Made by a program: the position numbers and the translations under genes
Assembly: GCF_905475395.1 (NCBI RefSeq)
Contig: NC_058337.1
Location: 138,949,172-139,013,171 of the forward strand
Direction of reading: 5' to 3'
DNA length: 64,000 nucleotides
Origin: Chrysoperla carnea
Lineage: Eukaryota > Arthropoda > Insecta > Neuroptera > Chrysopidae
Shown: one piece after another, positions 3,708-64,000 of the stretch
How the letters are laid out: each line of letters starts with the position of its first letter
Numbering within the stretch: the first letter of the stretch is position 1
The notes under the pieces: model-generated
Told to the model about the DNA's origin: nothing
The model's database searches: none
The model's input: the letters and a program-made list of their open reading frames with translations, nothing else

Positions 3708-3743
3708 CAATGATAATAATAATGATAATAATGATAATAATAA
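3708..3743. repeat. TAA/TGA microsatellite at the 5' edge of LINE copy 2
   Basis: A run of AAT and ATG trinucleotides sits immediately before the LINE coding frame. With the (TAA)n tract at the element's 3' end it brackets the copy. This is as expected for insertion into a TAA repeat, the known target of Dong-type elements. Confidence 0.75.
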
Positions 3744-43279: not shown

Positions 43280-43934
43280 GATCTACCTCCTTCAAGGCTA
43301 TCCATACACAACAATTACGATTAGGACGTAATAGGCTGCAATTCTTTCTAATCACTGCATGCTCACCTTCAAATATCTGATTTAACATACAATCATTAAG
43401 CTCTATATCTTTGCCCTTTTTAAATATCCCAGATGAAATGTTAGTAATAGTTAGTTTTGCTCCGACATAAGGACCAAATCTATATGACATATCTTGTCTT
43501 ATTTTTAGTCCTTGAGATTCTAATGCATGAATCTCTCTCTTACTTGCATCCACAATGTATTTATCAGTATATTATCAATATTCTCTTCTATAAAGATTAT
43601 CTGTCCTGTGCTACCAGCTACTCTTAAACTAAGATCAATGGTGCGACCTCCTGCATATAACCGACATTTCTATATCTTCACCAATAGCTGCAAGAGGCGT
43701 AATAAATAGGTTCTTACCTACAGCATCTTGCAATATCTTGTATTTTGCAGCATCCCCTATCACTTCAATAATAGACTTTCCTGAAAACCATGTTCTATTT
43801 AAATGATCCTTGCTAATTACTGCCTTAACTTTACTTCCTTGTTTTAAACAATATGTTTGTTCTGCAAATGAGGTGCTGCTCATTAAAATAGTGCATACAT
43901 ATATGGTAAGTATCATTGCTCTAATTATTCTCAT
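43272..43934 (-). pseudogene. traK: TraK-like secretin-type protein
   Basis: MRIIRAMILTIYVCTILMSS-TSFAEQ is a signal peptide. The N-terminal domain follows to GEDIEMSVICRRSHH, where the frame shifts near 43640. It resumes as TIDLSLRVAGSTGQIIFIEE and runs through QDMSYRFGPYVGAKLTITNI to KEVDRD at 43272. F TraK forms the outer-membrane ring with TraV. It has one frameshift, plus possibly a second near 43560. Its end overlaps the traB start by 8 bases. Confidence 0.78.
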
Positions 43935-44583: not shown

Positions 44584-45410
44584 GATGATTATTTTTTTAC
44601 TTACTAAAAGAGTCTACGTTGGTATGATGAAGGTATATGCTTGCCAAGCAAAACTCTTGCACCAAGCCATCTCCAGTACAAGTTCTTTTGAATATTGCCC
44701 GACATATATTCCTTCAGTAGTTAATCTATGACAGTTCTGGACCAAATTCAATGTTATTTCTCCATAAGAAAAATCGTAGTTGGTAAAAAAAATTGGTATA
44801 GGAAAATACATGTTAAATATAAAAAAGGAAAGCGTGTAGAGTGTGGATGACGTTATGGTTCAGTAGGTAGACAGGTACCCTTTGAAATTTGGACTATTGG
44901 TACGGTTGAGGAAACGGAAGCAAATCAAGAATAAGTGATGTTGATATAAAGTGTAGAAAAAAATTATTTATTTTTAAGCTGATAAGGAAATGATTGTGGT
45001 TAGTATTAATTCAAAACCGCATGTTTGTTGTTAAAATAAAAGTATGTATTTAAAACCGCAAAATTTGATAAGGCATTGTTTTAATTAAATAATTTTGGGA
45101 TGCCGTACCATTCGCAGTTGATGGTGGCGGCCGGCTGCTGACCGCCAGCGTTTTTCGCACCCAGTTGTGAACCTGAATTACAACTGAACCGATTTTATAT
45201 AGTTGTGGTTCATTAAAACATCAAATCACAATATTTCAATACCATTTGCTAATACTATTTCTTATTAAGATTTATTTTACTTCTGAATAAATTTGAGAGT
45301 TTTACATATAAATTGTGTTTGTTAAATATCTGTTTTATTTGAGTTTAATATTTTAAATTACATATTAAAAGAAAACGTTAGTACGAAATCATAAAATTTT
45401 TTGATAAAAA

Positions 45411-45797
45411 ATGGGTTTAGACGGAACATGTTCTAAGTATAAATACAATGTATTTGTAAGCTGGTTTATACCAACATGTTTGCAAGTGTTGTTTGATACA
45501 CCAAATCATTTCAAAAAATTGGTAACATCAAAAGAAGCGTGGGAAGTATTTGAGGAATTGAATACAGTGAGGATGGTTGAAATTCAAAATATGGTGATGG
45601 AACTTATGGAACTGATGTATGAGTTTGAAGATAGATTGGGAGAAGAATTTTATCACCCTGACGGATGGGAGTATTTTGAACTAGAATGTTTGAAACGTAT
45701 TAGCTCATTTCAAAATTATTATGATGGTGAAATATTGGAGGAGTTTTCAACGTTTCTAACCTTATGGAACACAAAAACATTACAAAGACAAAATTGA
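45411..45797 (+). CDS. Unknown 128-residue ORF, acidic
   Basis: Begins MGLDGTCSKYKYNVFVSWFI with a hydrophobic patch. A helical acidic middle follows (EVFEELNTVRMVEIQNMVME, then LMELMYEFEDRLGEEFYHPD), and it ends WNTKTLQRQN. No domain is recognised. It has an ATG in a fair context after AT-rich DNA and an AT-rich 3' side with AATAAA-like words near 45870. It might be a host gene or part of the adjoining virus-like DNA. Confidence 0.4.
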   Translation: MGLDGTCSKYKYNVFVSWFIPTCLQVLFDTPNHFKKLVTSKEAWEVFEELNTVRMVEIQNMVMELMELMYEFEDRLGEEFYHPDGWEYFELECLKRISSFQNYYDGEILEEFSTFLTLWNTKTLQRQN

Positions 45798-46199
45798 ATT
45801 ATATTTTATGTACACATATGTAATAAATTATAATACTTATATTTTTTTGTAAATAATTTATATACTTAATAAATGTTTTTGAAAAAAATTTTTTTTGTTT
45901 GTGGTTTAGATTAAAAGTATAAAGATCAATTACTTTTAAGAATATAAGTTATTTTCTCTTAATGTAATAAGAAAAAATTAGACCTATGAGAGTTCTACGA
46001 TCAAAGCCCATGTTAAATCCCATAAGAGAAATCATAGTTGGTAATTAACTTTACCCAGCCGTTATCAAAAATTAAAAGCAGAAGAAATTGAAAAAATTAT
46101 GGAAGCACCTGAACTATATGTAATTGTGAAAGGTGTAAATAAGTTTAACTCATATGATATTGAGTTTGGTTAACAACAACATCAACCGCATCAATAATG

Positions 46200-46412
46200 A
46201 TAATGGAACGTAAATATTTTTTAAATCCAGTAAGATCAATAGGTGTTGGTATTGATCCATCTACAATGGGAGAGAAGATTATATTTTCATCAAGAAAGTA
46301 TTCGATTTTTATGGATGTAAGACAGTGGTATTTATTTTTGGAATTGTTCAACTACATTGAAAATATTTTTATATTAATTTCGTCGATGGTTCAATATTTC
46401 TACATGATGTAA
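46200..46412 (+). other. Unknown short frame in AT-rich DNA
   Basis: A 70-residue frame containing KYFLNPVRSIGVGIDPSTMG and DVRQWYLFLELFNYIENIF. Its composition is unlike random AT-rich translation (Gly, Pro and Trp present), so it may be a piece of a real gene. It is not recognised. Confidence 0.3.
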
Positions 46413-46763
46413 GGTATTATGGATCTACTGAAAATATTTTCGTTGGGAAATTAAAAAGTAACACTTTAAAGTTAGTCCAGCGTCTGAAATTTTTAATGAA
46501 TAAGGAATTGGATTATTTGGAAAAATTCAAGATAGTTAAAAAATAAAAAATAAATTTTTTGTACTAGAAAAATTAGTTTTTAATAAATGTAATTAAAAAA
46601 TACAATAAATAATGTAAAAGTGTAAACTATTAATTATTAGGAAAATATTGAGTCAGCGTTTGATAGTCGAATTAAGACTGGTATAATTATTAATTTAACA
46701 CACAAAGACTCAAAATTTTCAATATAATTTTTTAATTTTTATCAAATTAAATGTATTTTTTTA

Positions 46764-47284
46764 ATGTTTTTCCTTAATATTAAGAAACCTGTTCTGACTA
46801 CGAACAAAACAACGTTTTTCATTGCTATTCTTCATCAACCAAGTGCTATTGCATATAATAAATTATCGATCAATGCGATCTATGGTGTTCTATTTTCTAG
46901 GGTTTTAGAAATTTATAAAATTACGGATACATTCGTAAAAATAAATTTTTTGTCTCAATTTTTAAAGAAAATGTACTAATGGGACATTGGTACATTGAAA
47001 ATTATTGGCGATTAAAAATTTTAATTCAAAGAGACAAAATATTTTTCTTACTAGAAAAATGGAAAATGAATGTTTTAAAGGATTTCACTCAAATCAAAGT
47101 AAATTCAACATTTTGTGGTGAATTTGTAAAGCTACAGAATGATGATGAAGTTTACAAATTCAAATATTTTAATAGTAAGAATCAAATTATTGATAGAATT
47201 TCAAATTTAACGGAATGGTATCAGGAAAACATACATATTCTTTATTTGTTTTTAGTGAAGAAGCTCTCTTACAAGAAGAGCTAG
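46764..47284 (+). other. Unit 1: two adjoining small ORFs (71 and 101 residues)
   Basis: Frames 46764-46979 and 46979-47284 lie next to the AT-rich end. The first contains TTFFIAILHQPSAIAYNKLS; the second contains CGEFVKLQNDDEVYKFKYFN and SKNQIIDRISNLTEWYQENI. No family recognised. Both recur unchanged in units 2 and 3. They are parts of a broken virus-like element. Confidence 0.4.
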
Positions 47285-47389
47285 ATTTGGACTACGAGGT
47301 TGATGATGAGAATATTTAGAAATTTATAAAATTACGTATACATTCGCGTTCGGTCATTATAAATTACAATTAGATTATGAAATTGATTT

Positions 47390-48600
47390 GTCTCAATTTT
47401 TAAAGAAAATGTACTAATGGGACATTGGTACATTCAAAATTATTGGCGATTAAAAATTTTAATTATTTAAAACTAATTGTGTTTTAATTCAAAGAGACAA
47501 AATATTTATGTAAAAGATGATTTTAAATGACGCTGATAATGGATATTTCTTAGAAGTGGATCTCAAATATCCTGAAGAACTTCATGATAAACATAAGGAT
47601 TTAGCTTTTTGTCCTGAACATAGATCAGTACTAATTGTTACATTTATCAATACGAAACAACAACGAAATAAATTACAATTAGATTATGAAATTGATTTGT
47701 CTTAATTTTTAAAGAAAATGTACTAATGGGACATTGGTACATTCAAAATTATTGGCGATTAAAAATTTTAATTATTTAAAACTGATTGTGTTTTAATTCA
47801 AAGAGACAAAATATTTATGTAAAAGATGATTTTAAATGACGCTGATAATGGATATTTCTTAGAAGTGGATCTCAAATATCCTGAAGAACTTCATGATAAA
47901 CATAAGGATTTAGCTTTTTGTCCTGAACATAGATCAGTACTAATTGTTACATTTATCAATACGAAACAACAACGAAATAAATTACAATTAGATTATGAAA
48001 TTGATTTGTCTTAATTTTTAAAGAAAATGTACTAATGGGACATTGGTACATTCAAAATTATTGGCGATTAAAAATTTTAATTATTTAAAACTGATTATGT
48101 TTTAATTCAAAGAGACAAAATATTTATGTAAAAGATGATGATTTAAAACTTAGTGATGATTTTCAGTCAAAGTTATTCTGTTAAAATAATGTAATTTTAA
48201 AATAACTATTTTTAAACATAAGGATTTAGCTTTTTGTCCTGAACATAGATCAGTACTAATTGTTACATTTATCAATACGAAACAACAACGAAAAAAATCA
48301 AATTAACTAGAATAGTAGCCATAATGTGCACAACAGATTTTTACAAAAAAAAATATGATCGAAATTTAGTTGAAACACAAGCAAATTAACTGGAATAGTA
48401 GCCATAATTTACACAATGCAGATTTTTACAATAAAAAACATAATCAAAATTTAGTTTTCGGTCATGTAATTTAAAAACAACGAAATAAATTACAATTAGA
48501 TTATGAAATTGATTTGTCTTAATTTTTAAAGAAAATGTACTAATGGGACATTGGTACATTCAAAATTATTGGCGATTAAAAATTTTAATTATTTAAAACT
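47390..48600 (+). repeat. Tandem repeats within unit 1 (309 bp, then about 507 bp)
   Basis: The box ATGTACTAATGGGACATTGG recurs near 46970, 47409, 47718, 48028 and 48535, each time followed by TATTGGCGATTAAAAATTTT. Two 309-bp periods carry a coding piece, and later periods carry a shortened one. The same set occurs mirrored in each other unit. Confidence 0.85.
47517..48014 (+). other. Unit 1: family B DNA polymerase-like fragments, two tandem copies
   Basis: 47517-47705 and 47826-48014 give the same 62 residues, with [20 protein letters not shown] and LAFCPEHRS. This closely resembles the GYxLEVDLxYPxxLHDxHxDxPxxPE stretch in the palm of protein-primed family B polymerases of Polintons and related viruses, as I know it. 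Only this short piece is present, in two direct copies. Virus-like fossil. Confidence 0.6.
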
Positions 48601-49070
48601 GATTATGTTTTAATTCAAAGAGACAAAATATTTATGTAAAAGATGATGATTTAAAACTTAGTGATGATTTGCAGTCAAAGTTATTCTGTTAAAATAATGT
48701 AATTTTAAAATAACTATTTTTAAACATAAGGATTTAGCTTTTTGTCCTGAACATAGATCAGTACTAATTGTTACATTTATCAATACGAAACAACAACGAA
48801 AAAAATCAAATTAACTAGAATAGTAGCCATAATGTGCACAACAGATTTTTACAAAAAAAATATGATCGAAATTTAGTTGAAACACAAGCAAATTAACTGG
48901 AATAGTAGCCATAATTTACACAATGCAGATTTTTACAATAAAAAACATAATCAAAATTTAGTTTTCGGTCATGTAATTTAAAAAAAAAAAAAAATAAATA
49001 AATAAATAAATTAGATATCTACAAGTAATAATTGAAAGACAAAAAAAAATGTAGGATGTAAAAAAATTTT

Positions 49071-49781
49071 TTATCTAATAACATTACACAAAAACTGAAA
49101 AACCCGCTTTTCTGTACCATTAGAAAATAATCTTTGAAGTTGTTTATATGATATCGAAAATTCAAAATTGGTTTTAGCCCTTAAAATATTTTTAAATGAT
49201 AGCATAGTATCTGCATCATAAAAGCATATTTCAATAGCTAACCTATTTTTTAATATTATGGGAACTATTTTAAATTCAACCTCTAATAATTCATTACTAT
49301 AATGAATATAAAAAAAGTTCTCACCGATTCTAATAAATTTCAGAATTTCTTTACATCCTTCATTATTTTTATATTCTAATAACAAATTCAGCTGCTCCAC
49401 TGTATCGCTAACATCATGTGTTGGAATTCCATGAAAGAGAAGAAGATGTTTAATGTAATCTTGCGAGTTTGTAAACATTTTCCAATTACACAATGGGAGT
49501 ATGCATCGTGTGATAGCCATGCTCACGCAGTCATCACTCTCATGATATCGAAATTTAGAAATTTGCAATTTCTTCCCACACATATCGTTCGGACACACAA
49601 CCTCCATATCCATCATCCTCTCCAATACTTGATTTCTTGTAAATTCTTTATGTTCGTGACATACAGGACATCTATCTATTGCAGCGCTGTTGGATGCGAT
49701 TGGAAAAAAATAGCATCCATCACACACCGAATGGAAGTTATCGCATTGGTATATATGCACATTAAAAACCTCTCGACACAC
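49071..49781 (-). CDS. Unit 1: RING/SIAH-type zinc-finger ORF
   Basis: 236 residues. The N-terminal part has a RING-like Cys/His spacing (CREVFNVHIYQCDNFHSVCD, then CPVCHEHKE). A SIAH-type zinc finger follows (VVCPNDMCGKKLQISKFRYH, CILPLCNWKMFTNSQDYIKH). The rest looks like a beta-rich SINA-type C-terminal domain. Such proteins are usually E3 ubiquitin ligases. It is present once per unit on the side near the compound hairpin, transcribed toward the unit's middle. It probably came from a host gene and is carried by the virus-like element. A 128-residue frame on the opposite strand is its shadow. Confidence 0.65.
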   Translation of the reverse strand: MCREVFNVHIYQCDNFHSVCDGCYFFPIASNSAAIDRCPVCHEHKEFTRNQVLERMMDMEVVCPNDMCGKKLQISKFRYHESDDCVSMAITRCILPLCNWKMFTNSQDYIKHLLLFHGIPTHDVSDTVEQLNLLLEYKNNEGCKEILKFIRIGENFFYIHYSNELLEVEFKIVPIILKNRLAIEICFYDADTMLSFKNILRAKTNFEFSISYKQLQRLFSNGTEKRVFQFLCNVIR

Positions 49782-49863
49782 TTGGCAGCGGAATTCATTT
49801 AAAATCTATATGAATATTTTATACTATTAATTTTAAGTATGACCAAAAAAATAAATGTGTTGA

Positions 49864-50214
49864 TCAATTAGAATTGCGTATGGAAAGTGGTAGCGCTATA
49901 CGTTTCGCAAATAAATCTGTATATTTTGTTAGGTCGTAATAAAAAAACTCATCCGTTTTTTGTAATGCTTCCATCAAATTTTGCATACTACTTAGACCAC
50001 GCCTTGGATACTTGGCCGAGTAGAACTTCAAAATTGATCCATACTCCCTAACCACCTTCTCAATTGCTAATTCAACTTGCATTTTCGTAAAATTATTATC
50101 ATGCTCTTGATCATACACATGCATTTCAACAGGTTTTGGTACTGATGAACTCCCCAACAAAAAATGTGAATAAAAACTATTTTTATTTTTGTAAAATACC
50201 TTTTCGGCTTCCAT
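49864..50214 (-). CDS. Unit 1: unknown 116-residue ORF
   Basis: MEAEKVFYKNKNSFYSHFLL then GSSSVPKPVEMHVYDQEHDN, and MQVELAIEKVVREYGSILKF further on. It is mostly helical by eye, with no domain recognised. A (CAA)n tract and AT-rich DNA with a TATAAATAGG-like box (near 50317-50327 on the minus strand) lie upstream. This fits a eukaryotic or viral promoter next to the compound hairpin. It lies upstream of, and in the same direction as, the RING/SIAH ORF. Confidence 0.5.
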   Translation of the reverse strand: MEAEKVFYKNKNSFYSHFLLGSSSVPKPVEMHVYDQEHDNNFTKMQVELAIEKVVREYGSILKFYSAKYPRRGLSSMQNLMEALQKTDEFFYYDLTKYTDLFAKRIALPLSIRNSN

Positions 50215-50317
50215 TTTTTCAACAACAACAACAACAACAGCAACACAAGTAAAAATAATGTTAATACGAATGTAATGAAACTGTCTACTAAAGTAAATTA
50301 ACTCGCAAAAGTCCTAT

Positions 50318-50330
50318 TTATACAATGAAA
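50318..50330 (-). promoter_or_regulatory. Candidate TATA box upstream of the 116-residue ORF
   Basis: The minus strand reads TTGTATAAATAGGAC about 105 bases before the ATG at 50214, in otherwise plain AT-rich DNA. The same box occurs in each unit (mirrored near 51780 and 60752). It is a good TATA match; the start site cannot be seen. Confidence 0.45.
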
Positions 50331-50457
50331 TTTTATCTCCAAAAATTTTTTTGGGATGCATGTGATTATTATTGTTTAAATTTAAAAACCTGTAGGAAGT
50401 TGATAAAAGTGTTAAAGGAAACTAATTTATTTTAAATAATAATAAATTTTTTATTTA

Positions 50458-51645
50458 TATGTAGTTCGCATCACAAGTTTTCATATTTTCGAAATCAGCG
50501 TTTCGAATTGGTAAAACTATATTTTGTTTTATAAAACGCATGACCCGTCCTAACTCGACCCCATTAAAGGCATGGCCAACCTGTTGATCACAGGGTGAAT
50601 TCATACTGAAAACCATACCGGTTTCTAAACAGACCAGTATTAAACAGGTCAAAACCTGTATTAAACAGGTTAAAACCAGTATTAAACAGGTTAAAACCAG
50701 TATTAAACAGGTACAGACCAGTATCAAACAGACCTGTTTAGAAACAGACCTGTTTAGAAACAGGTCTGTATCTAAACAGGTCTCTTTCTAAACAGGTCTG
50801 TTTCTAAACAGGTCTGTTTCTAAACAGGTCTGTTTAATACTGGTCTGTACCTGTTTAATACTGGTTTTAACCTGTTTAATACAGGTTTTGACCTGTTTAA
50901 TACTGGTCTGTTTAGAAACCGGTATGGTTTTCAATATGAATTCACCCTGTGATCAACAGGTTGGCCATGCCTTTAATGGGGTCGAGGACCCGTCCTAACT
51001 CGACCCCATTAAAGGCATGGCCAACCTGTTGATCACAGGGTGAATTCATACTGAAAACCATACCGGTTTCTAAACAGACCAGTATTAAACAGGTCAAAAC
51101 CTGTATTAAACAGGTTAAAACCAGTATTAAACAGGTACAGACCAGTATTAAACAGACCTGTTTAGAAACAGACCTGTTTAGAAACAGACCTGTTTAGAAA
51201 GAGACCTGTTTAGATACAGACCTGTTTCTAAACAGGTCTGTTTCTAAACAGGTCTGTTTAATACTGGTCTGTACCTGTTTAATACTGGTTTTAACCTGTT
51301 TAATACTGGTTTTAACCTGTTTAATACTGGTTTTAACCTGTTTAATACAGGTTTTGACCTGTTTAATACTGGTCTGTTTAGAAACCGGTATGGTTTTCAG
51401 TATGAATTCACCCTGTGATCAACAGGTTGGCCATGCCTTTAATGGGGTCGAGTTAGGACGGGTCTGCGGGTTTTTGGCCCTTGCGTTCATTCTGTGATTG
51501 AATTCACCCTGTGATCAACAGGTTGGCCATGCCTTTAATGGGGTCGAGTTAGGACGGGTCATGCGTTTTATAAAACAAAATATAGTTTTACCAATTCGAA
51601 ACGCTGATTTCGAAAATATGAAAACTTGTGATGCGAACTACATAT
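50458..51645. repeat. Compound hairpin joint A1 (head-to-head)
   Basis: The outer arms are inverted repeats: TAGTTCGCATCACAAG at 50462 and its inverse ending at 51640. Inside are two further long palindromes, 50554-50986 and 50999-51452, each bounded by CTCGACCCCATTAAAGGCAT. They are built from short inverted words (TAAACAGGT, ACAGACCTG, TTAATACTGG). A unique spacer (about 51463-51498, TGCGGGTTTTTGGCCC) and a third arm copy follow. This nested layout resembles T- or cross-shaped viral telomere hairpins. Confidence 0.85.
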
Positions 51646-51888
51646 AAATAAAAAATTTATTATTATTTAAAATAAATTAGTTTCCTTTAACACTTTTATC
51701 AACTTCCTACAGGTTTTTAAATTTAAACAATAATAATCACATGCATCCGAAAAAAAATTTTTGGAGATAAAATTTCATTGTATAAATAGGACTTTTGCGA
51801 GTTAATTTACTTTAGTAGACAGTTTCATTACATTCGTATTAACATTATTTTTACTTGTGTTGCTGTTGTTGTTGTTGTTGTTGAAAAA

Positions 51889-52239
51889 ATGGAAGCCGAA
51901 AAGGTATTTTACAAAAATAAAAATAGTTTTTATTCACATTTTTTGTTGGGGAGTTCATCAGTACCAAAACCTGTTGAAATGCATGTGTATGATCAAGAGC
52001 ATGATAATAATTTTACGAAAATGCAAGTTGAATTAGCAATTGAGAAGGTGGTTAGGGAGTATGGATCAATTTTGAAGTTCTACTCGGCCAAGTATCCAAG
52101 GCGTGGTCTAAGTAGTATGCAAAATTTGATGGAAGCATTACAAAAAACGGATGAGTTTTTTTATTACGACCTAACAAAATATACAGATTTATTTGCGAAA
52201 CGTATAGCGCTACCACTTTCCATACGCAATTCTAATTGA
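51889..52239 (+). CDS. Unit 2: unknown 116-residue ORF
   Basis: The same 116 residues as at 49864-50214, mirrored. It lies beside compound hairpin A1 and reads toward the RING/SIAH ORF. Confidence 0.5.
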   Translation: MEAEKVFYKNKNSFYSHFLLGSSSVPKPVEMHVYDQEHDNNFTKMQVELAIEKVVREYGSILKFYSAKYPRRGLSSMQNLMEALQKTDEFFYYDLTKYTDLFAKRIALPLSIRNSN

Positions 52240-52321
52240 TCAACACATTTATTTTTTTGGTCATACTTAAAATTAATAGTATAAAATATTCATATAGATT
52301 TTAAATGAATTCCGCTGCCAA

Positions 52322-53032
52322 GTGTGTCGAGAGGTTTTTAATGTGCATATATACCAATGCGATAACTTCCATTCGGTGTGTGATGGATGCTATTTTTTTC
52401 CAATCGCATCCAACAGCGCTGCAATAGATAGATGTCCTGTATGTCACGAACATAAAGAATTTACAAGAAATCAAGTATTGGAGAGGATGATGGATATGGA
52501 GGTTGTGTGTCCGAACGATATGTGTGGGAAGAAATTGCAAATTTCTAAATTTCGATATCATGAGAGTGATGACTGCGTGAGCATGGCTATCACACGATGC
52601 ATACTCCCATTGTGTAATTGGAAAATGTTTACAAACTCGCAAGATTACATTAAACATCTTCTTCTCTTTCATGGAATTCCAACACATGATGTTAGCGATA
52701 CAGTGGAGCAGCTGAATTTGTTATTAGAATATAAAAATAATGAAGGATGTAAAGAAATTCTGAAATTTATTAGATTCGGTGAGAACTTTTTTTATATTCA
52801 TTATAGTAATGAATTATTAGAGGTTGAATTTAAAATAGTTCCCATAATATTAAAAAATAGGTTAGCTATTGAAATATGCTTTTATGATGCAGATACTATG
52901 CTATCATTTAAAAATATTTTAAGGGCTAAAACCAATTTTGAATTTTCGATATCATATAAACAACTTCAAAGATTATTTTCTAATGGTACAGAAAAGCGGG
53001 TTTTTCAGTTTTTGTGTAATGTTATTAGATAA
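52322..53032 (+). CDS. Unit 2: RING/SIAH-type zinc-finger ORF
   Basis: 236 residues, matching the unit 1 copy but for one residue (RFGENFF rather than RIGENFF). RING-like and SIAH-type Cys/His patterns are unchanged. The near identity of copies on opposite strands shows recent duplication. Confidence 0.65.
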   Translation: MCREVFNVHIYQCDNFHSVCDGCYFFPIASNSAAIDRCPVCHEHKEFTRNQVLERMMDMEVVCPNDMCGKKLQISKFRYHESDDCVSMAITRCILPLCNWKMFTNSQDYIKHLLLFHGIPTHDVSDTVEQLNLLLEYKNNEGCKEILKFIRFGENFFYIHYSNELLEVEFKIVPIILKNRLAIEICFYDADTMLSFKNILRAKTNFEFSISYKQLQRLFSNGTEKRVFQFLCNVIR

Positions 53033-53099
53033 AAAATTTTTTTACATCCTACATTTTTTTTTGTCTTTCAATTATTACTTGTAGATATCTAATTTATTT

Positions 53100-55540
53100 A
53101 TATATTTTTTTTTTTTTTTAAATTACATGACCGAAAACTAAATTTTGATTATGTTTTTTATTGTAAAAATCTGCATTGTGTAAATTATGGCTACTATTCC
53201 AGTTAATTTGCTTGTGTTTCAACTAAATTTCGATCATATTTTTTTTGTAAAAATCTGTTGTGCACATTATGGCTACTATTCTAGTTAATTTGATTTTTTT
53301 CGTTGTTGTTTCGTATTGATACATGTAACAATTAGTACTGATCTATGTTCAGGACAAAAAGCTAAATCCTTATGTTTAAAAATAGTTATTTTAAAATTAC
53401 ATTATTTTAACAGAATAACTTTGACTGCAAATCATCACTAAGTTTTAAATCATCATCTTTTACATAAATATTTTGTCTCTTTGAATTAAAACATAATCAG
53501 TTTTAAATAATTAAAATTTTTAATCGCCAATAATTTTGAATGTACCAATGTCCCATTAGTACATTTTCTTTAAAAATTAAGACAAATCAATTTCATAATC
53601 TAATTGTAATTTATTTCGTTGTTTTTAAATTACATGACCGAAAACTAAATTTTGATTATGTTTTTTATTGTAAAAATCTGCATTGTGTAAATTATGGCTA
53701 CTATTCCAGTTAATTTGCTTGTGTTTCAACTAAATTTCGATCATATTTTTTTTTGTAAAAATCTGTTGTGCACATTATGGCTACTATTCTAGTTAATTTG
53801 ATTTTTTTCGTTGTTGTTTCGTATTGATAAATGTAACAATTAGTACTGATCTATGTTCAGGACAAAAAGCTAAATCCTTATGTTTAAAAATAGTTATTTT
53901 AAAATTACATTATTTTAACAGAATAACTTTGACTGCAAATCATCACTAAGTTTTAAATCATCATCTTTTACATAAATATTTTGTCTCTTTGAATTAAAAC
54001 ATAATCAGTTTTAAATAATTAAAATTTTTAATCGCCAATAATTTTGAATGTACCAATGTCCCATTAGTACATTTTCTTTAAAAATTAAGACAAATCAATT
54101 TCATAATCTAATTGTAATTTATTTCGTTGTTGTTTCGTATTGATAAATGTAACAATTAGTACTGATCTATGTTCAGGACAAAAAGCTAAATCCTTATGTT
54201 TATCATGAAGTTCTTCAGGATATTTGAGATCCACTTCTAAGAAATATCCATTATCAGCGTCATTTAAAATCATCTTTTACATAAATATTTTGTCTCTTTG
54301 AATTAAAACACAATCAGTTTTAAATAATTAAAATTTTTAATCGCCAATAATTTTGAATGTACCAATGTCCCATTAGTACATTTTCTTTAAAAATTAAGAC
54401 AAATCAATTTCATAATCTAATTGTAATTTATTTCGTTGTTGTTTCGTATTGATAAATGTAACAATTAGTACTGATCTATGTTCAGGACAAAAAGCTAAAT
54501 CCTTATGTTTATCATGAAGTTCTTCAGGATATTTGAGATCCACTTCTAAGAAATATCCATTATCAGCGTCATTTAAAATCATCTTTTACATAAATATTTT
54601 GTCTCTTTGAATTAAAACACAATTAGTTTTAAATAATTAAAATTTTTAATCGCCAATAATTTTGAATGTACCAATGTCCCATTAGTACATTTTCTTTAAA
54701 AATTGAGACAAATCAATTTCATAATCTAATTGTAATTTATAATGACCGAACGCGAATGTATACGTAATTTTATAAATTTCTAAATATTCTCATCATCAAC
54801 CTCGTAGTCCAAATCTAGCTCTTCTTGTAAGAGAGCTTCTTCACTAAAAACAAATAAAGAATATGTATGTTTTCCTGATACCATTCCGTTAAATTTGAAA
54901 TTCTATCAATAATTTGATTCTTACTATTAAAATATTTGAATTTGTAAACTTCATCATCATTCTGTAGCTTTACAAATTCACCACAAAATGTTGAATTTAC
55001 TTTGATTTGAGTGAAATCCTTTAAAACATTCATTTTCCATTTTTCTAGTAAAAAAAATATTTTGTCTCTTTGAATTAAAATTTTTAATCGCCAATAATTT
55101 TCAATGTACCAATGTCCCATTAGTACATTTTCTTTAAAAATTGAGACAAAAAATTTATTTTTACGAATGTATCCGTAATTTTATAAATTTCTAAAACCCT
55201 AGAAAATAGAACACCATAGATCGCATTGATCGATAATTTATTATATGCAATAGCACTTGGTTGATGAAGAATAGCAATGAAAAACGTTGTTTTGTTCGTA
55301 GTCAGAACAGGTTTCTTAATATTAAGGAAAAACATTAAAAAAATACATTTAATTTGATAAAAATTAAAAAATTATATTGAAAATTTTGAGTCTTTGTGTG
55401 TTAAATTAATAATTATACCAGTCTTAATTCGACTATCAAACGCTGACTCAATATTTTCCTAATAATTAATAGTTTACACTTTTACATTATTTATTGTATT
55501 TTTTAATTACATTTATTAAAAACTAATTTTTCTAGTACAA
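53100..55540 (-). repeat. Unit 2: mirrored tandem-repeat half
   Basis: Mirror image of 46550-48970. It holds the family B polymerase-like pieces at 54085-54273 and 54394-54582, and the 101- and 71-residue frames at 54815-55120 and 55120-55335, all on the minus strand. It ends at the AT-rich hairpin centred on 55536. Confidence 0.75.
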
Positions 55541-55632
55541 AAAATTTATTTTTTAATAAATGTAATTAAAAAATACAATAAATAATGTAAAAGTGTAAAC
55601 TATTAATTATTAGGAAAATATTGAGTCAGCGT
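55440..55632. repeat. AT-rich hairpin joint B (tail-to-tail)
   Basis: Perfect inverted arms (TTTTTAATTACATTTATTAA and inverse) enclose an asymmetric loop of about 28 bases (55523-55550: CTAATTTTTCTAGTACAAAA then AATTTATT). At the left end of the array (46550-46580) the same loop lies in the opposite orientation relative to the arm it adjoins. This gives the two possible forms of an asymmetric terminal loop. Confidence 0.8.
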
Positions 55633-55736
55633 TTGATAGTCGAATTAAGACTGGTATAATTATTAATTTAACACACAAAGACTCAAAATTTTCAATATAA
55701 TTTTTTAATTTTTATCAAATTAAATGTATTTTTTTA

Positions 55737-56987
55737 ATGTTTTTCCTTAATATTAAGAAACCTGTTCTGACTACGAACAAAACAACGTTTTTCATTGCTA
55801 TTCTTCATCAACCAAGTGCTATTGCATATAATAAATTATCGATCAATGCGATCTATGGTGTTCTATTTTCTAGGGTTTTAGAAATTTATAAAATTACGGA
55901 TACATTCGTAAAAATAAATTTTTTGTCTCAATTTTTAAAGAAAATGTACTAATGGGACATTGGTACATTGAAAATTATTGGCGATTAAAAATTTTAATTC
56001 AAAGAGACAAAATATTTTTTTTACTAGAAAAATGGAAAATGAATGTTTTAAAGGATTTCACTCAAATCAAAGTAAATTCAACATTTTGTGGTGAATTTGT
56101 AAAGCTACAGAATGATGATGAAGTTTACAAATTCAAATATTTTAATAGTAAGAATCAAATTATTGATAGAATTTCAAATTTAACGGAATGGTATCAGGAA
56201 AACATACATATTCTTTATTTGTTTTTAGTGAAGAAGCTCTCTTACAAGAAGAGCTAGATTTGGACTACGAGGTTGATGATGAGAATATTTAGAAATTTAT
56301 AAAATTACGTATACATTCGCGTTCGGTCATTATAAATTACAATTAGATTATGAAATTGATTTGTCTCAATTTTTAAAGAAAATGTACTAATGGGACATTG
56401 GTACATTCAAAATTATTGGCGATTAAAAATTTTAATTATTTAAAACTAATTGTGTTTTAATTCAAAGAGACAAAATATTTATGTAAAAGATGATTTTAAA
56501 TGACGCTGATAATGGATATTTCTTAGAAGTGGATCTCAAATATCCTGAAGAACTTCATGATAAACATAAGGATTTAGCTTTTTGTCCTGAACATAGATCA
56601 GTACTAATTGTTACATTTATCAATACGAAACAACAACGAAATAAATTACAATTAGATTATGAAATTGATTTGTCTTAATTTTTAAAGAAAATGTACTAAT
56701 GGGACATTGGTACATTCAAAATTATTGGCTATTAAAAATTTTAATTATTTAAAACTGATTGTGTTTTAATTCAAAGAGACAAAATATTTATGTAAAAGAT
56801 GATTTTAAATGACGCTGATAATGGATATTTCTTAGAAGTGGATCTCAAATATCCTGAAGAACTTCATGATAAACATAAGGATTTAGCTTTTTGTCCTGAA
56901 CATAGATCAGTACTAATTGTTACATTTATCAATACGAAACAACAACGAAATAAATTACAATTAGATTATGAAATTGATTTGTCTTAA
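55737..56987 (+). repeat. Unit 3: small ORFs and polymerase-like fragments
   Basis: Direct copy of the unit 1 left half. It has frames of 71 (55737-55952), 101 (55952-56257) and twice 62 residues (56490-56678, 56799-56987). The 62-residue pieces carry the family B polymerase-like stretch. Almost no difference from unit 1 is seen. Confidence 0.7.
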
Positions 56988-58042
56988 TTTTTAAAGAAAA
57001 TGTACTAATGGGACATTGGTACATTCAAAATTATTGGCGATTAAAAATTTTAATTATTTAAAACTGATTATGTTTTAATTCAAAGAGACAAAATATTTAT
57101 GTAAAAGATGATGATTTAAAACTTAGTGATGATTTGCAGTCAAAGTTATTCTGTTAAAATAATGTAATTTTAAAATAACTATTTTTAAACATAAGGATTT
57201 AGCTTTTTGTCCTGAACATAGATCAGTACTAATTGTTACATTTATCAATACGAAACAACAACGAAAAAAATCAAATTAACTAGAATAGTAGCCATAATGT
57301 GCACAACAGATTTTTACAAAAAAAAATATGATCGAAATTTAGTTGAAACACAAGCAAATTAACTGGAATAGTAGCCATAATTTACACAATGCAGATTTTT
57401 ACAATAAAAAACATAATCAAAATTTAGTTTTCGGTCATGTAATTTAAAAACAACGAAATAAATTACAATTAGATTATGAAATTGATTTGTCTTAATTTTT
57501 AAAGAAAATGTACTAATGGGACATTGGTACATTCAAAATTATTGGCGATTAAAAATTTTAATTATTTAAAACTGATTATGTTTTAATTCAAAGAGACAAA
57601 ATATTTATGTAAAAGATGATGATTTAAAACTTAGTGATGATTTGCAGTCAAAGTTATTCTGTTAAAATAATGTAATTTTAAAATAACTATTTTTAAACAT
57701 AAGGATTTAGCTTTTTGTCCTGAACATAGATCAGTACTAATTGTTACATTTATCAATACGAAACAACAACGAAAAAAATCAAATTAACTAGAATAGTAGC
57801 CATAATGTGCACAACAGATTTTTACAAAAAAAATATGATCGAAATTTAGTTGAAACACAAGCAAATTAACTGGAATAGTAGCCATAATTTACACAATGCA
57901 GATTTTTACAATAAAAAACATAATCAAAATTTAGTTTTCGGTCATGTAATTTAAAAAAAAAAAAAATAAATAAATAAATAAATTAGATATCTACAAGTAA
58001 TAATTGAAAGACAAAAAAAAATGTAGGATGTAAAAAAATTTT

Positions 58043-58753
58043 TTATCTAATAACATTACACAAAAACTGAAAAACCCGCTTTTCTGTACCATTAGAAAAT
58101 AATCTTTGAAGTTGTTTATATGATATCGAAAATTCAAAATTGGTTTTAGCCCTTAAAATATTTTTAAATGATAGCATAGTATCTGCATCATAAAAGCATA
58201 TTTCAATAGCTAACCTATTTTTTAATATTATGGGAACTATTTTAAATTCAACCTCTAATAATTCATTACTATAATGAATATAAAAAAAGTTCTCACCGAA
58301 TCTAATAAATTTCAGAATTTCTTTACATCCTTCATTATTTTTATATTCTAATAACAAATTCAGCTGCTCCACTGTATCGCTAACATCATGTGTTGGAATT
58401 CCATGAAAGAGAAGAAGATGTTTAATGTAATCTTGCGAGTTTGTAAACATTTTCCAATTACACAATGGGAGTATGCATCGTGTGATAGCCATGCTCACGC
58501 AGTCATCACTCTCATGATATCGAAATTTAGAAATTTGCAATTTCTTCCCACACATATCGTTCGGACACACAACCTCCATATCCATCATCCTCTCCAATAC
58601 TTGATTTCTTGTAAATTCTTTATGTTCGTGACATACAGGACATCTATCTATTGCAGCGCTGTTGGATGCGATTGGAAAAAAATAGCATCCATCACACACC
58701 GAATGGAAGATATCGCATTGGTATATATGCACATTAAAAACCTCTCGACACAC
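58043..58753 (-). CDS. Unit 3: RING/SIAH-type zinc-finger ORF
   Basis: 236 residues; compared with unit 1 it has IYQCDIFHSV instead of IYQCDNFHSV and RFGENFF. The zinc-binding pattern is kept. It is the third nearly identical copy. Confidence 0.65.
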   Translation of the reverse strand: MCREVFNVHIYQCDIFHSVCDGCYFFPIASNSAAIDRCPVCHEHKEFTRNQVLERMMDMEVVCPNDMCGKKLQISKFRYHESDDCVSMAITRCILPLCNWKMFTNSQDYIKHLLLFHGIPTHDVSDTVEQLNLLLEYKNNEGCKEILKFIRFGENFFYIHYSNELLEVEFKIVPIILKNRLAIEICFYDADTMLSFKNILRAKTNFEFSISYKQLQRLFSNGTEKRVFQFLCNVIR

Positions 58754-58835
58754 TTGGCAGCGGAATTCATTTAAAATCTATATGAATATTTTATACTATT
58801 AATTTTAAGTATGACCAAAAAAATAAATGTGTTGA

Positions 58836-59186
58836 TCAATTAGAATTGCGTATGGAAAGTGGTAGCGCTATACGTTTCGCAAATAAATCTGTATATTTTG
58901 TTAGGTCGTAATAAAAAAACTCATCCGTTTTTTGTAATGCTTCCATCAAATTTTGCATACTACTTAGACCACGCCTTGGATACTTGGCCGAGTAGAACTT
59001 CAAAATTGATCCATACTCCCTAACCACCTTCTCAATTGCTAATTCAACTTGCATTTTCGTAAAATTATTATCATGCTCTTGATCATACACATGCATTTCA
59101 ACAGGTTTTGGTACTGATGAACTCCCCAACAAAAAATGTGAATAAAAACTATTTTTATTTTTGTAAAATACCTTTTCGGCTTCCAT
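58836..59186 (-). CDS. Unit 3: unknown 116-residue ORF
   Basis: Identical to the unit 1 copy. It lies beside compound hairpin A2. Confidence 0.5.
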   Translation of the reverse strand: MEAEKVFYKNKNSFYSHFLLGSSSVPKPVEMHVYDQEHDNNFTKMQVELAIEKVVREYGSILKFYSAKYPRRGLSSMQNLMEALQKTDEFFYYDLTKYTDLFAKRIALPLSIRNSN

Positions 59187-59429
59187 TTTTTCAACAACAA
59201 CAACAACAACAGCAACACAAGTAAAAATAATGTTAATACGAATGTAATGAAACTGTCTACTAAAGTAAATTAACTCGCAAAAGTCCTATTTATACAATGA
59301 AATTTTATCTCCAAAAATTTTTTTGGGATGCATGTGATTATTATTGTTTAAATTTAAAAACCTGTAGGAAGTTGATAAAAGTGTTAAAGGAAACTAATTT
59401 ATCTTAAATAATAATAAATTTTTTATTTA

Positions 59430-60617
59430 TATGTAGTTCGAATCACAAGTTTTCATATTTTCGAAATCAGCGTTTCGAATTGGTAAAACTATATTTTGTT
59501 TTATAAAACGCATGACCCGTCCTAACTCGACCCCATTAAAGGCATGGCCAACCTGTTGATCACAGGGTGAATTCATACTGAAAACCATACCGGTTTCTAA
59601 ACAGACCAGTATTAAACAGGTCAAAACCTGTATTAAACAGGTTAAAACCAGTATTAAACAGGTTAAAACCAGTATTAAACAGGTACAGACCAGTATTAAA
59701 CAGACCTGTTTAGAAACAGACCTGTTTAGAAACAGGTCTGTATCTAAACAGGTCTCTTTCTAAACAGGTCTGTTTCTAAACAGGTCTGTTTCTAAACAGG
59801 TCTGTTTAATACTGGTCTGTACCTGTTTAATACTGGTTTTAACCTGTTTAATACAGGTTTTGACCTGTTTAATACTGGTCTGTTTAGAAACCGGTATGGT
59901 TTTCAATATGAATTCACCCTGTAATCAACAGGTTGGCCATGCCTTTAATGGGGTCGAGGACCCGTCCTAACTCGACCCCATTAAAGGCATGGCCAACCTG
60001 TTGATCACAGGGTGAATTCATACTGAAAACCATACCGGTTTCTAAACAGACCAGTATTAAACAGGTCAAAACCTGTATTAAACAGGTTAAAACCAGTATT
60101 AAACAGGTACAGACCAGTATTAAACAGACCTGTTTAGAAACAGACCTGTTTAGAAACAGACCTGTTTAGATACAGACCTGTTTAGATACAGACCTGTTTC
60201 TAAACAGGTCTGTTTCTAAACAGGTCTGTTTAATACTGGTCTGTACCTGTTTAATACTGGTTTTAACCTGTTTAATACTGGTTTTAACCTGTTTAATACT
60301 GGTTTTAACCTGTTTAATACAGGTTTTGACCTGTTTAATACTGGTCTGTTTAGAAACCGGTATGGTTTTCAGTATGAATTCACCCTGTGATCAACAGGTT
60401 GGCCATGCCTTTAATGGGGTCGAGTTAGGACGGGTCTGCGGGTTTTTGGCCCTTGCGTTCATTCTGTGATTGAATTCACCCTGTGATCAACAGGTTGGCC
60501 ATGCCTTTAATGGGGTCGAGTTAGGACGGGTCATGCGTTTTATAAAACAAAATATAGTTTTACCAATTCGAAACGCTGATTTCGAAAATATGAAAACTTG
60601 TGATGCGAACTACATAT
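59430..60617. repeat. Compound hairpin joint A2 (head-to-head)
   Basis: Same plan and same left-to-right order as A1: outer arm, inner palindrome 1 (about 59526-59958), inner palindrome 2 (about 59971-60424), spacer TGCGGGTTTTTGGCCC, third arm copy, outer arm. A few word changes (for example TTTAGATACAGACC in place of TTTAGAAAGAGACC) distinguish it from A1. Confidence 0.85.
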
Positions 60618-60860
60618 AAATAAAAAATTTATTATTATTTAAAATAAATTAGTTTCCTTTAACACTTTTATCAACTTCCTACAGGTTTTTAAATTTAAAC
60701 AATAATAATCACATGCATCCGAAAAAAAATTTTTGGAGATAAAATTTCATTGTATAAATAGGACTTTTGCGAGTTAATTTACTTTAGTAGACAGTTTCAT
60801 TACATTCGTATTAACATTATTTTTACTTGTGTTGCTGTTGTTGTTGTTGTTGTTGAAAAA

Positions 60861-61211
60861 ATGGAAGCCGAAAAGGTATTTTACAAAAATAAAAATAGTT
60901 TTTATTCACATTTTTTGTTGGGGAGTTCATCAGTACCAAAACCTGTTGAAATGCATGTGTATGATCAAGAGCATGATAATAATTTTACGAAAATGCAAGT
61001 TGAATTAGCAATTGAGAAGGTGGTTAGGGAGTATGGATCAATTTTGAAGTTCTACTCGGCCAAGTATCCAAGGCGTGGTCTAAGTAGTATGCAAAATTTG
61101 ATGGAAGCATTACAAAAAACGGATGAGTTTTTTTATTACGACCTAACAAAATATACAGATTTATTTGCGAAACGTATAGCGCTACCACTTTCCATACGCA
61201 ATTCTAATTGA
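60861..61211 (+). CDS. Unit 4: unknown 116-residue ORF
   Basis: Fourth copy, identical to the others, beside joint A2. Confidence 0.5.
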   Translation: MEAEKVFYKNKNSFYSHFLLGSSSVPKPVEMHVYDQEHDNNFTKMQVELAIEKVVREYGSILKFYSAKYPRRGLSSMQNLMEALQKTDEFFYYDLTKYTDLFAKRIALPLSIRNSN

Positions 61212-61293
61212 TCAACACATTTATTTTTTTGGTCATACTTAAAATTAATAGTATAAAATATTCATATAGATTTTAAATGAATTCCGCTGCCAA

Positions 61294-62004
61294 GTGTGTC
61301 GAGAGGTTTTTAATGTGCATATATACCAATGCGATAACTTCCATTCGGTGTGTGATGGATGCTATTTTTTTCCAATCGCATCCAACAGCGCTGCAATAGA
61401 TAGATGTCCTGTATGTCACGAACATAAAGAATTTACAAGAAATCAAGTATTGGAGAGGATGATGGATATGGAGGTTGTGTGTCCGAACGATATGTGTGGG
61501 AAGAAATTGCAAATTTCTAAATTTCGATATCATGAGAGTGATGACTGCGTGAGCATGGCTATCACACGATGCATACTCCCATTGTGTAATTGGAAAATGT
61601 TTACAAACTCGCAAGATTACATTAAACATCTTCTTCTCTTTCATGGAATTCCAACACATGATGTTAGCGATACAGTGGAGCAGCTGAATTTGTTATTAGA
61701 ATATAAAAATAATGAAGGATGTAAAGAAATTCTGAAATTTATTAGATTCGGTGAGAACTTTTTTTATATTCATTATAGTAATGAATTATTAGAGGTTGAA
61801 TTTAAAATAGTTCCCATAATATTAAAAAATAGGTTAGCTATTGAAATATGCTTTTATGATGCAGATACTATGCTATCATTTAAAAATATTTTAAGGGCTA
61901 AAACCAATTTTGAATTTTCGATATCATATAAACAACTTCAAAGATTATTTTCTAATGGTACAGAAAAGCGGGTTTTTCAGTTTTTGTGTAATGTTATTAG
62001 ATAA
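61294..62004 (+). CDS. Unit 4: RING/SIAH-type zinc-finger ORF
   Basis: Fourth copy, identical to that of unit 2 over 236 residues by eye, including RFGENFF. Confidence 0.65.
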   Translation: MCREVFNVHIYQCDNFHSVCDGCYFFPIASNSAAIDRCPVCHEHKEFTRNQVLERMMDMEVVCPNDMCGKKLQISKFRYHESDDCVSMAITRCILPLCNWKMFTNSQDYIKHLLLFHGIPTHDVSDTVEQLNLLLEYKNNEGCKEILKFIRFGENFFYIHYSNELLEVEFKIVPIILKNRLAIEICFYDADTMLSFKNILRAKTNFEFSISYKQLQRLFSNGTEKRVFQFLCNVIR

Positions 62005-62079
62005 AAAATTTTTTTACATCCTACATTTTTTTTTGTCTTTCAATTATTACTTGTAGATATCTAATTTATTTATTTATTT

Positions 62080-64000
62080 ATTTTTTTTTTTTTTAAATTA
62101 CATGACCGAAAACTAAATTTTGATTATGTTTTTTATTGTAAAAATCTGCATTGTGTAAATTATGGCTACTATTCCAGTTAATTTGCTTGTGTTTCAACTA
62201 AATTTCGATCATATTTTTTTTGTAAAAATCTGTTGTGCACATTATGGCTACTATTCTAGTTAATTTGATTTTTTTCGTTGTTGTTTCGTATTGATAAATG
62301 TAACAATTAGTACTGATCTATGTTCAGGACAAAAAGCTAAATCCTTATGTTTAAAAATAGTTATTTTAAAATTACATTATTTTAACAGAATAACTTTGAC
62401 TGCAAATCATCACTAAGTTTTAAATCATCATCTTTTACATAAATATTTTGTCTCTTTGAATTAAAACATAATCAGTTTTAAATAATTAAAATTTTTAATC
62501 GCCAATAATTTTGAATGTACCAATGTCCCATTAGTACATTTTCTTTAAAAATTAAGACAAATCAATTTCATAATCTAATTGTAATTTATTTCGTTGTTTT
62601 TAAATTACATGACCGAAAACTAAATTTTGATTATGTTTTTTATTGTAAAAATCTGCATTGTGTAAATTATGGCTACTATTCCAGTTAATTTGCTTGTGTT
62701 TCAACTAAATTTCGATCATATTTTTTTTTGTAAAAATCTGTTGTGCACATTATGGCTACTATTCTAGTTAATTTGATTTTTTTCGTTGTTGTTTCGTATT
62801 GATAAATGTAACAATTAGTACTGATCTATGTTCAGGACAAAAAGCTAAATCCTTATGTTTAAAAATAGTTATTTTAAAATTACATTATTTTAACAGAATA
62901 ACTTTGACTGCAAATCATCACTAAGTTTTAAATCATCATCTTTTACATAAATATTTTGTCTCTTTGAATTAAAACATAATCAGTTTTAAATAATTAAAAT
63001 TTTTAATCGCCAATAATTTTGAATGTACCAATGTCCCATTAGTACATTTTCTTTAAAAATTAAGACAAATCAATTTCATAATCTAATTGTAATTTATTTC
63101 GTTGTTGTTTCGTATTGATAAATGTAACAATTAGTACTGATCTATGTTCAGGACAAAAAGCTAAATCCTTATGTTTATCATGAAGTTCTTCAGGATATTT
63201 GAGATCCACTTCTAAGAAATATCCATTATCAGCGTCATTTAAAATCATCTTTTACATAAATATTTTGTCTCTTTGAATTAAAACACAATCAGTTTTAAAT
63301 AATTAAAATTTTTAATCGCCAATAATTTTGAATGTACCAATGTCCCATTAGTACATTTTCTTTAAAAATTAAGACAAATCAATTTCATAATCTAATTGTA
63401 ATTTATTTCGTTGTTGTTTCGTATTGATAAATGTAACAATTAGTACTGATCTATGTTCAGGACAAAAAGCTAAATCCTTATGTTTATCATGAAGTTCTTC
63501 AGGATATTTGAGATCCACTTCTAAGAAATATCCATTATCAGCGTCATTTAAAATCATCTTTTACATAAATATTTTGTCTCTTTGAATTAAAACACAATTA
63601 GTTTTAAATAATTAAAATTTTTAATCGCCAATAATTTTGAATGTACCAATGTCCCATTAGTACATTTTCTTTAAAAATTGAGACAAATCAATTTCATAAT
63701 CTAATTGTAATTTATAATGACCGAACGCGAATGTATACGTAATTTTATAAATTTCTAAATATTCTCATCATCAACCTCGTAGTCCATATCTAGCTCTTCT
63801 TGTAAGAGAGCTTCTTCACTAAAAACAAATAAAGAATATGTATGTTTTCCTGATACCATTCCGTTAAATTTGAAATTCTATCAATAATTTGATTCTTACT
63901 ATTAAAATATTTGAATTTGTAAACTTCATCATCATTCTGTAGCTTTACAAATTCACCACAAAATGTTGAATTTACTTTGATTTGAGTGAAATCCTTTAAA
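62080..64000 (-). repeat. Unit 4: mirrored tandem-repeat half, running off the window
   Basis: Mirrors unit 3. It contains the 62-residue polymerase-like pieces at 63060-63248 and 63369-63557, then the start of the 101-residue region at the window edge. The unit would end at about 64510, so the array may continue. Confidence 0.75.

Follow-up and report, generated by a model that had tools for sequence, protein, structure and literature searches.

A defective Polinton palindrome in Rickettsia-derived DNA of Chrysoperla carnea and its probable origin by fold-back replication

The inverted array in the window (the whole stretch of DNA analysed here, 64,000 nucleotides of chromosome 1 of the lacewing Chrysoperla carnea) is one integrated, defective Polinton (Maverick/adintovirus-type) palindrome that probably formed by fold-back during protein-primed replication. 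A second group of palindromic Polinton relatives in the same genome is the stronger find.

Extent and symmetry of the array

The array is a single element, a 21,643-bp palindrome that runs from window base 44716 to 2,358 bases beyond the window end; inverted homology stops at 44716 on one side and at L009:2358 (C1:139015529) on the other. An earlier note on this DNA had placed the limits at 46550 and 64000, which is wrong, and 46550 is not a unit end in the relatives on C2 and at C5:73.07 Mb, where sequence runs through it (46348-46700, 97%). The symmetry centres proposed there (about 51051, 55536 and 60023) are confirmed, as are units of about 4.49 kb with alternating direction (direct-repeat period 8,973 bp, identity 99.76%). 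These are U1 (46544..50603, plus strand), its reverse U2 (51561..55522, minus strand, up to the stem of joint B), U3 (55550..59513, plus strand) and U4 (60533..64000, minus strand), the last of which continues beyond the window as far as the second Polinton terminus.

The longest inverted arms (56047-59324 and 60723-64000) are 3,278 nt long and 100% identical, so that chance is excluded as the source of the symmetry. With joints A and B left out, 14 of 9,786 sites distinguish the left half from the right; the array is palindromic over its whole length, the A cores excepted. Comparison of the four units (47074-50603 and its copies) yields 15 variable alignment columns, two with a direct pattern, none with the mirror pattern that is expected from fold-back at B, and 13 uninformative.

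Termini and insertion site

Both ends are one and the same Polinton terminus, AGTAGTTAATC, reading AGTAGT...ACTACT at both ends in agreement with the AG/AGT terminal inverted repeats of Polintons/Mavericks, and each end of the palindrome carries the same 2.36-kb end. The flanking target site duplication (TSD), TCCTTC, has the 6 bp of a Polinton/Maverick TSD; its left copy occupies 44710..44715 and its right copy follows L009:2358. (End motifs and TSD length are as given in PMC8097293.) The target is a Rickettsia-derived traL, next to a traE, likewise Rickettsia-derived, that flanks the insertion (43921..44583, minus strand). R. tamurae has the intact traL site; aligned to it, the two flanks share exactly 6 bp. 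A bacterial contig or MAG chimera is rejected as the source of the window, which sits on chromosome 1 of the 559-Mb C. carnea genome. The terminus recurs: 29 of the 56 genome matches listed start with base 1 of the query, but as the query itself begins at 44716 this count alone does not place the end; at C2 and C5:73.05 similarity ceases at the 44716-type end. That both ends are the same Polinton end implies that the palindrome most likely predates its insertion, and integration as a ready palindrome is well supported.

The element is internally recombinant. A Polinton terminus with its subterminal segment (44716..45354; closest to C3:14296769-14297406, 96%) is followed by a plus-strand segment from the opposite, polymerase-side Polinton end (45346..45960; C2:82099197-82099810, 97%) and by the remnant of another Polinton terminal repeat (45984..46044), whose start corresponds to a point 10 nt inward from the end of C5:73053996-73072908. 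Beyond these lies a Polinton right-end gene block (46046..50459), arranged like C2:82111492-82116353, in comparison with which about 1.16 kb is absent between 46346 and 46348; U1 is its repeated part.

The two joints

Joint A (centres 51051 and 60023) is a repeat block of about 1 kb, whose inner palindrome centre lies about 58 nt off the unit axis. A 71-nt piece of the Polinton ATPase-side region (50471..50541), inverted relative to the preceding gene block, adjoins the left core (50542..51560). The core consists of two foldback-like palindromic repeat units and a partial one; a register slip of a snap-back is rejected on this ground as an account of joint A. The repeats have many matches elsewhere in the genome. 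Foldback transposons have long inverted arms made up of short tandem repeats, and the joint A repeats resemble them, with the difference that here they occupy central or near-central positions in Polinton-ended palindromes. The right core (59514..60532) has the orientation of the left one (4 differences in direct versus 250 in inverted alignment), so that symmetry about 55536 breaks inside the cores.

Joint B (55536), a palindrome whose 27-nt loop (55523..55549) is closed by a short AAAAA/TTTTT stem, is present a single time in the array. Two relatives read through its site without a break. Folding of the single strand before joint B is modestly better than that of shuffled sequence, which is not significant (z -1.04; 33 of 200 shuffles equal or better). 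The two joints had been described as different hairpins: the difference holds, B being a looped palindrome, but A is a repeat block.

Gene content and full-length relatives

The open reading frames of at least 90 aa in the window element are a SIAH-like frame, ORFs of 116, 101 and 128 aa, and a 128-aa ORF antisense to the SIAH-like frame; no PolB, integrase or capsid gene is among them. One 128-aa ORF (45411-45797) lies inside the polymerase-side segment. The RING/SIAH-like frame (49071..49805, minus strand; 244 aa from stop to stop, with an ATG ORF of 181 aa at 49071-49616) scores 26.2 bits against Sina_RING, under the cut-off of 29.3; none of 64 candidates matches the SIAH-like protein at E <= 0.001, and no solved structure does at E <= 0.01. 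The 116-aa ORF (49864..50214, minus strand) and the SIAH-like frame are present as first reported. The gene set had been taken to fit no known family, but it does fit the Polintons: in full-length copies both adjoin the major capsid gene. PolB fragments exist in smaller frames, with a 309-bp internal tandem repeat (47359..48305) that holds such fragments, and 47516-47636 is 95% like the PolB of the palindromic group. A PolB search of IMG/VR gave two stretches that fitted the pattern, neither of them a relative.

Full-length Polintons with similar termini, each with its own TSD, lie at C2:82098431-82117252 and C5:73053996-73072908. The C2 copy has Pfam matches to an rve integrase, a PLA2-like protein and a double jelly-roll capsid protein (what we take to be its ATPase and protease have no family match), and the C5 copy has corresponding ORFs. 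The full Polinton/Maverick gene set (PolB, rve integrase, capsid, protease, ATPase) is not found in the window element, which is classed here as a defective Polinton derivative and not a complete member. The earlier suggestion of a defective relative of some larger virus-like element was right. The window element shares (AGT)2-type termini, 6-bp TSD and gene block with Polintons/Mavericks (adintoviruses) and differs from them in being palindromic and internally recombinant, and in the PolB, integrase and capsid genes not found in it.

Palindromic Polintons elsewhere in the genome

The second group consists of pairs of similar termini in inverted orientation, spaced by 1.9-15.8 kb, between which the inner matches are mirrored. 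Of the seven loci at which both ends were read, five have perfect 6-bp TSDs (CCTTTA, GAGGAC, AATATA, AGGTTA, CATAAC), and the loci are spread over several chromosomes; the remaining two, C5:66.9 and C1:139.33, have none. C5:66.9 (C5:66894030-66907886), the only locus read from end to end, is palindromic over 13.9 kb and has one PolB gene in each arm; its inner arms of 4,866 nt are separated by 189 nt, its outer 1,891 alignment columns are 99.8% identical, and no integrase or capsid gene is seen in it. The other loci have inverted terminus pairs with mirrored inner or PolB nucleotide matches (at C4:36.9, no PolB match among 40 scored of 169 candidates). In 1,106 columns, arm differs from arm by no mismatch at C1:50.1 and by one at C5:66.9; between these loci, the only two compared, there are 1-2 mismatches and 7 gap columns common to both arms. 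The existence of this group, whose one fully read member has a PolB gene in each arm, suggests that palindromes are a recurrent, transmissible form of Polinton, and that mirror-image forms can multiply and integrate.

A tentative reading, to which we give somewhat less than even weight, is that these are self-copying, fully palindromic Polinton satellites, with two outward PolB genes, a repeat-rich hairpin-loop centre and Polinton termini at both ends. A linear monomer with one hairpin and one open end would be regenerated in each cycle, integrase (possibly also capsids) would be borrowed from full-length Polintons, and the satellites would in turn seed further palindromes, the window element being one example.

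Origin of the palindrome

In the proposed pathway the window element would have arisen as a free linear molecule in the course of protein-primed replication. A strand that had been displaced or left unfinished would fold back at the A repeats and copy itself; a second fold-back, at the AAAAA/TTTTT repeat in joint B, would be copied again, to give a mirror-image molecule that has replication origins at both ends. A full-length helper Polinton would provide polymerase and integrase in trans, the integrase inserting the product. In any element that is an inverted repeat throughout, a strand set free by displacement could form a hairpin and so rebuild the double-stranded terminal origin. Copying of a linear DNA by fold-back is the most likely origin, and to that extent the earlier reading is right. 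The direct orientation of the A cores speaks against the simplest form of fold-back replication; it would be explained if one A segment had subsequently been inverted by way of its long inverted arms.

The direct orientation of the A cores is accounted for if there was no second fold-back and B is instead the end-joining point of two first-order palindromes (end-U1-A-U2-end) that had both been broken near 46550. A short-homology junction at B is consistent with this, but the two breaks must then have fallen no more than about 33 nt apart, a coincidence that a snap-back yields automatically, and we consider the scheme rather unlikely. Of similarly low probability is an ordinary Polinton in traL that was made palindromic after its insertion, through inverted duplication and gene conversion in the chromosome. 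Conversion could also be the source of near-identical arms, and the A cores and two of the variants are direct rather than mirrored; however, because the same 2.36-kb end stands on both sides within an intact 6-bp TSD, one terminus would have to be overwritten to its exact last base with the flank untouched, and palindromic relatives with separate TSDs of their own exist on several chromosomes.

In favour of an assembly or library artefact of fold-back reads, the middle pair of units lacks a unique anchor and a typical HiFi read is shorter than the 21.6-kb insertion. Set against this are the exact TSD, the 15 columns at which the four units differ, the palindromic loci with different TSDs on several chromosomes, and an assembly made from PacBio HiFi reads at 40x with Hi-C (PMC10116181), which together make an artefact very unlikely. 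The linear replicon that the earlier note envisaged, with a different hairpin telomere at each end and concatemer copying, does agree with alternating units and two joint types. It is contradicted by the true ends, which are Polinton termini with a 6-bp TSD, by two relatives in which B is not a terminus, and by the five ORFs tested from the units and the end, in which there is no resolvase, NS1 or Rep-type domain; its probability is close to nil. A parvovirus-like rolling-hairpin replicon is rejected on the same lack of an NS1/Rep domain and on the Polinton termini.

Relation to known systems

The replication mode of Polintons is inferred mostly from gene content. If the proposed origin is true, TSD-flanked palindromic copies are fossils of Polinton replication intermediates, and free linear Polinton DNA, usable at both ends, has been present in the germ line and was inserted by an integrase acting in trans. 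A palindromic group that encodes PolB itself would amount to a transposon-virus satellite, through which Polinton replication could be tested directly. Symmetric or snap-back defective genomes occur in adenovirus and other protein-primed viruses, and adenovirus-type snap-back genomes are, like the window element, mirror molecules with one viral end at both termini. The window palindrome differs from these in being chromosomal, with a TSD, and the second group in being near-identical at several loci.

AAV replicates by a rolling-hairpin mode with Rep, and in this differs. Its snapback defective genomes, in which a snapback configuration leads to self-complementary genomes (PMC8235507), are alike in configuration. 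For the invertron-type mitochondrial plasmids pAL2-1 and kalilo, panhandle-type replication intermediates have been suggested to give rise to the long inverted repeats that surround integrated copies (PMC1864894); there the plasmid is flanked by repeats of host DNA, whereas in the lacewing the element itself is palindromic. No description of palindromic Polintons was found in the Polinton, adenovirus, linear-plasmid and Chrysoperla literature (titles and abstract openings among the matches listed), and the string 'palindrom' has no occurrence in the main texts of PMC4028283, PMC6431247, PMC8097293 and PMC11071296. Insertion inside Rickettsia-derived DNA orders the two events, provided that the bacterial DNA entered the chromosome without the element.

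Extent and identity of the palindromic element

The palindromic element of the window is a Polinton derivative of 21,643 bp (C1:138993887-139015529; C1 to C6 are chromosomes or contigs of the same genome, and bare coordinates are window positions), running from 44716 to position 2358 of L009, the sequence directly to the right. The symmetry centres at 51051, 55536 and 60023 proposed in the earlier note are borne out, with complementary arms perfect over up to 3,278 nt. The array ends that it reported are not, in that the array extends beyond both: L009:1-2358 is the reverse complement of 47073-44716 with 3 mismatches. With the A cores and B loop excluded, 14 mismatches in 9,786 aligned sites and 6 gap columns separate the left half from the right.

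At 44716 the element begins with a Polinton terminus (AGTAGTTAATC). Twenty-nine of the 56 genome matches listed for 44716-45410 start at the first base (best 40 of 46 candidates, the counts being lower bounds). Two full-length relatives, C2:82098431-82117252 and C5:73053996-73072908, end on both sides at the same terminal base, with TSDs CTACTA and GATAGG, respectively; TCCTTC is found at both ends of the window element. These termini and this TSD fit the (AGT)2-type termini and 6-bp TSD given for vertebrate Mavericks in passages of PMC8097293.

ORFs of the C2 copy match the Pfam rve integrase (9e-17), PLA2-like (1e-12) and double jelly-roll capsid (1.3e-122) families, and a chromo domain match is below its cut-off; the ATPase and protease are putative, named from the appearance of their sequences. 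Corresponding ORFs are present among those listed for the C5 copy. The capsid gene is adjoined by the SIAH-like and 116-aa ORFs that the earlier note had picked out. In the family search L029/L014, the long ORF in the C2 copy, reached no PolB model directly; it is called PolB because a relative with which it has a 66% nucleotide match, the PolB of the palindromic group described below, does so (PF03175, 4.8e-24). The top two protein matches of one PolB from this genome are from C. carnea (91% and 84% identity). The genome comprises 559,487,470 bases in 337 contigs (139,979,878 in C1); the C. carnea assembly inChrCarn1.1, of which this may be a slightly different version, is described in PMC10116181 as PacBio HiFi at 40-fold with Hi-C.

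Internal structure and joints

The outermost segment (44716-45354) resembles the Polinton copy at C3:14.30 Mb (96%) and is followed by one from the opposite, polymerase-side Polinton end (45346-45960; 97% to C2), a second-terminus remnant (45984-46044), the right-end gene block (46046-50459, with ~1.16 kb absent relative to C2) and an inverted snippet of the ATPase side (50471-50541). Joint A (50542-51560), centred at 51051 and again at 60023, consists of two foldback-like palindromic units and one partial unit; 481 genome matches, itself included, are listed for this region (best 40 of 656 candidates).

Joint B, at 55536, has a 27-nt loop closed by an AAAAA/TTTTT stem, and its left arm is ~33 nt longer than the right. 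Two relatives, at C2 and C5:73.07 Mb, run continuously through this site. It looks as though a strand stopped here, folded at a short repeat and copied itself. Speaking against a simple double fold-back are the direct orientation of the A cores (4 differences direct versus 250 inverted), the pattern of 15 variable columns (2 direct, none mirror, 13 uninformative) and the only modest folding of the strand before B (z -1.04).

A palindromic group of PolB elements

The PolB search (best 40 of 169 candidates) places one PolB group in close inverted pairs at C5:66.9, C3:57.7, C1:50.1, C6:2.8 and C3:15.6 Mb. One locus, C5:66894030-66907886, was read fully; most others are known from paired matches and 60-nt ends. 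The inner arms of the C5:66.9 locus (4,866 nt) show 100% complementarity in the repeat search (99.98% by BLAST) and enclose 189 nt of short tandem repeats; its outer arms stand at 99.8%. The right arm carries a PolB frame of 1,303 aa that faces outward, and the left arm matching ORF pieces. The family search at this locus took in PolB alone, and no further Polinton-looking gene appears in the ORFs listed (at least 100 aa in the inner 10 kb, at least 80 aa outside).

Inverted terminus pairs are also found at shorter spacing at C4:36.88 (5.6 kb), C3:15.59 (6.3 kb) and C1:139.33 (1.9 kb), and at longer spacing at C6:2.81 (15.8 kb), all with mirrored inner matches (the inner parts being known as matches only). 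Among the 7 loci whose ends were both read, TSDs, terminal A included, are present at 5 (C1:50.1, C3:57.7, C4:36.9, C3:15.6 and C6:2.8), whereas C5:66.9 and C1:139.33 lack one; adding the window element and the two full-length copies, likewise read at both ends, brings the count to 8 of 10.

At C1:50.1 the arms are identical across 1,100 nt. The C5:66.9 arms depart from them by 1-2 mismatches and by 7 gap columns that are common to both C5:66.9 arms. Arms within a locus thus change together, in the two loci compared.

Joint A probably derives from this group, judging from sequence likeness, because the group's inner-arm repeats match the A-joint repeats at 78-90%, its PolB matches the 'polymerase-like scraps' of the earlier note at 95%, and A-type repeats lie between the two termini of the C1:139.33 element.

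Proposed mode of replication and integration

In protein-primed replication, synthesis initiates at each end and a strand is displaced; rebuilding of the origin depends on the inverted ends. In a wholly palindromic element the displaced strand could fold and rebuild its origin at once, and copying one arm through a central hairpin would yield both arms, so that the arms would remain identical. Integration would require the termini alone, and a helper integrase might therefore act. What the sequences show is the palindromes, their termini and TSDs, a PolB frame at a single locus, and arms that vary in concert within the pair of loci set side by side; replication fold-back, a helper integrase and any packaging are inferred. 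Background on protein-primed replication is partly that of passages of PMC8097293. No title or abstract start in the Polinton literature searched, which leaves subscription papers largely outside, describes palindromic Polintons; this is not proof.

Insertion site and Rickettsia-derived surroundings

The flanks of the window element align with Rickettsia tamurae AT-1 (L040) at 2912-2802 (left) and 2807-2143 (right), overlapping by exactly 6 bp within a single ORF that matches Pfam TraL at 24.5 bits (cut-off 24.4). TraE lies to the left; the ORF to the right, which gave no match in the family search, we take to be TraA-like from its position. TraC, ParA and HD-domain proteins are among those encoded nearby. 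What is presumably an RT-like ORF lies ~7.7 kb past the right end, between the HD-domain ORF and ParA, as one would expect of bacterial DNA residing inside an insect chromosome.

Rickettsia-like DNA occupies tens of kb of lacewing chromosome 1 (8700-44715, L009:2359-10000 and L010), roughly 1 Mb away from the end of the scaffold, and contains conjugation genes, group II introns, ParA and what we take to be IS982-type transposases. The closest relative found is R. tamurae (84.7% nucleotide identity beside the insertion). A second short Rickettsia-like piece lies at C1:138601472-138601727. Adjoining the bacterial DNA is a duplicated block (273-6763; 97-98% identity) with two reverse-transcriptase ORFs. 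The bacterial DNA is edged by a 259-bp tandem repeat (7339-8203) that resembles the palindromic PolB element's inner arm at ~86-89%.

Other Polinton-related observations

A database protein (P0019) annotated as 'DNA polymerase [Rickettsia endosymbiont of Ceutorhynchus assimilis]' has 62% identity to the Polinton-type PolB of the insect, and may be read as contamination or a similar juxtaposition. Several Polinton subfamilies form a dense fragment cluster at C5:71.5-74.1 Mb, with capsid gene matches of 63-99%; nested within a Polinton copy at C5:72.05 Mb (L027:3365-7366) are what we take to be Gag-pol-like ORFs of an LTR retrotransposon. A Polinton terminus pair 4.6 kb apart, at C2:93579797-93584352, is apparently a simple internal-deletion derivative.
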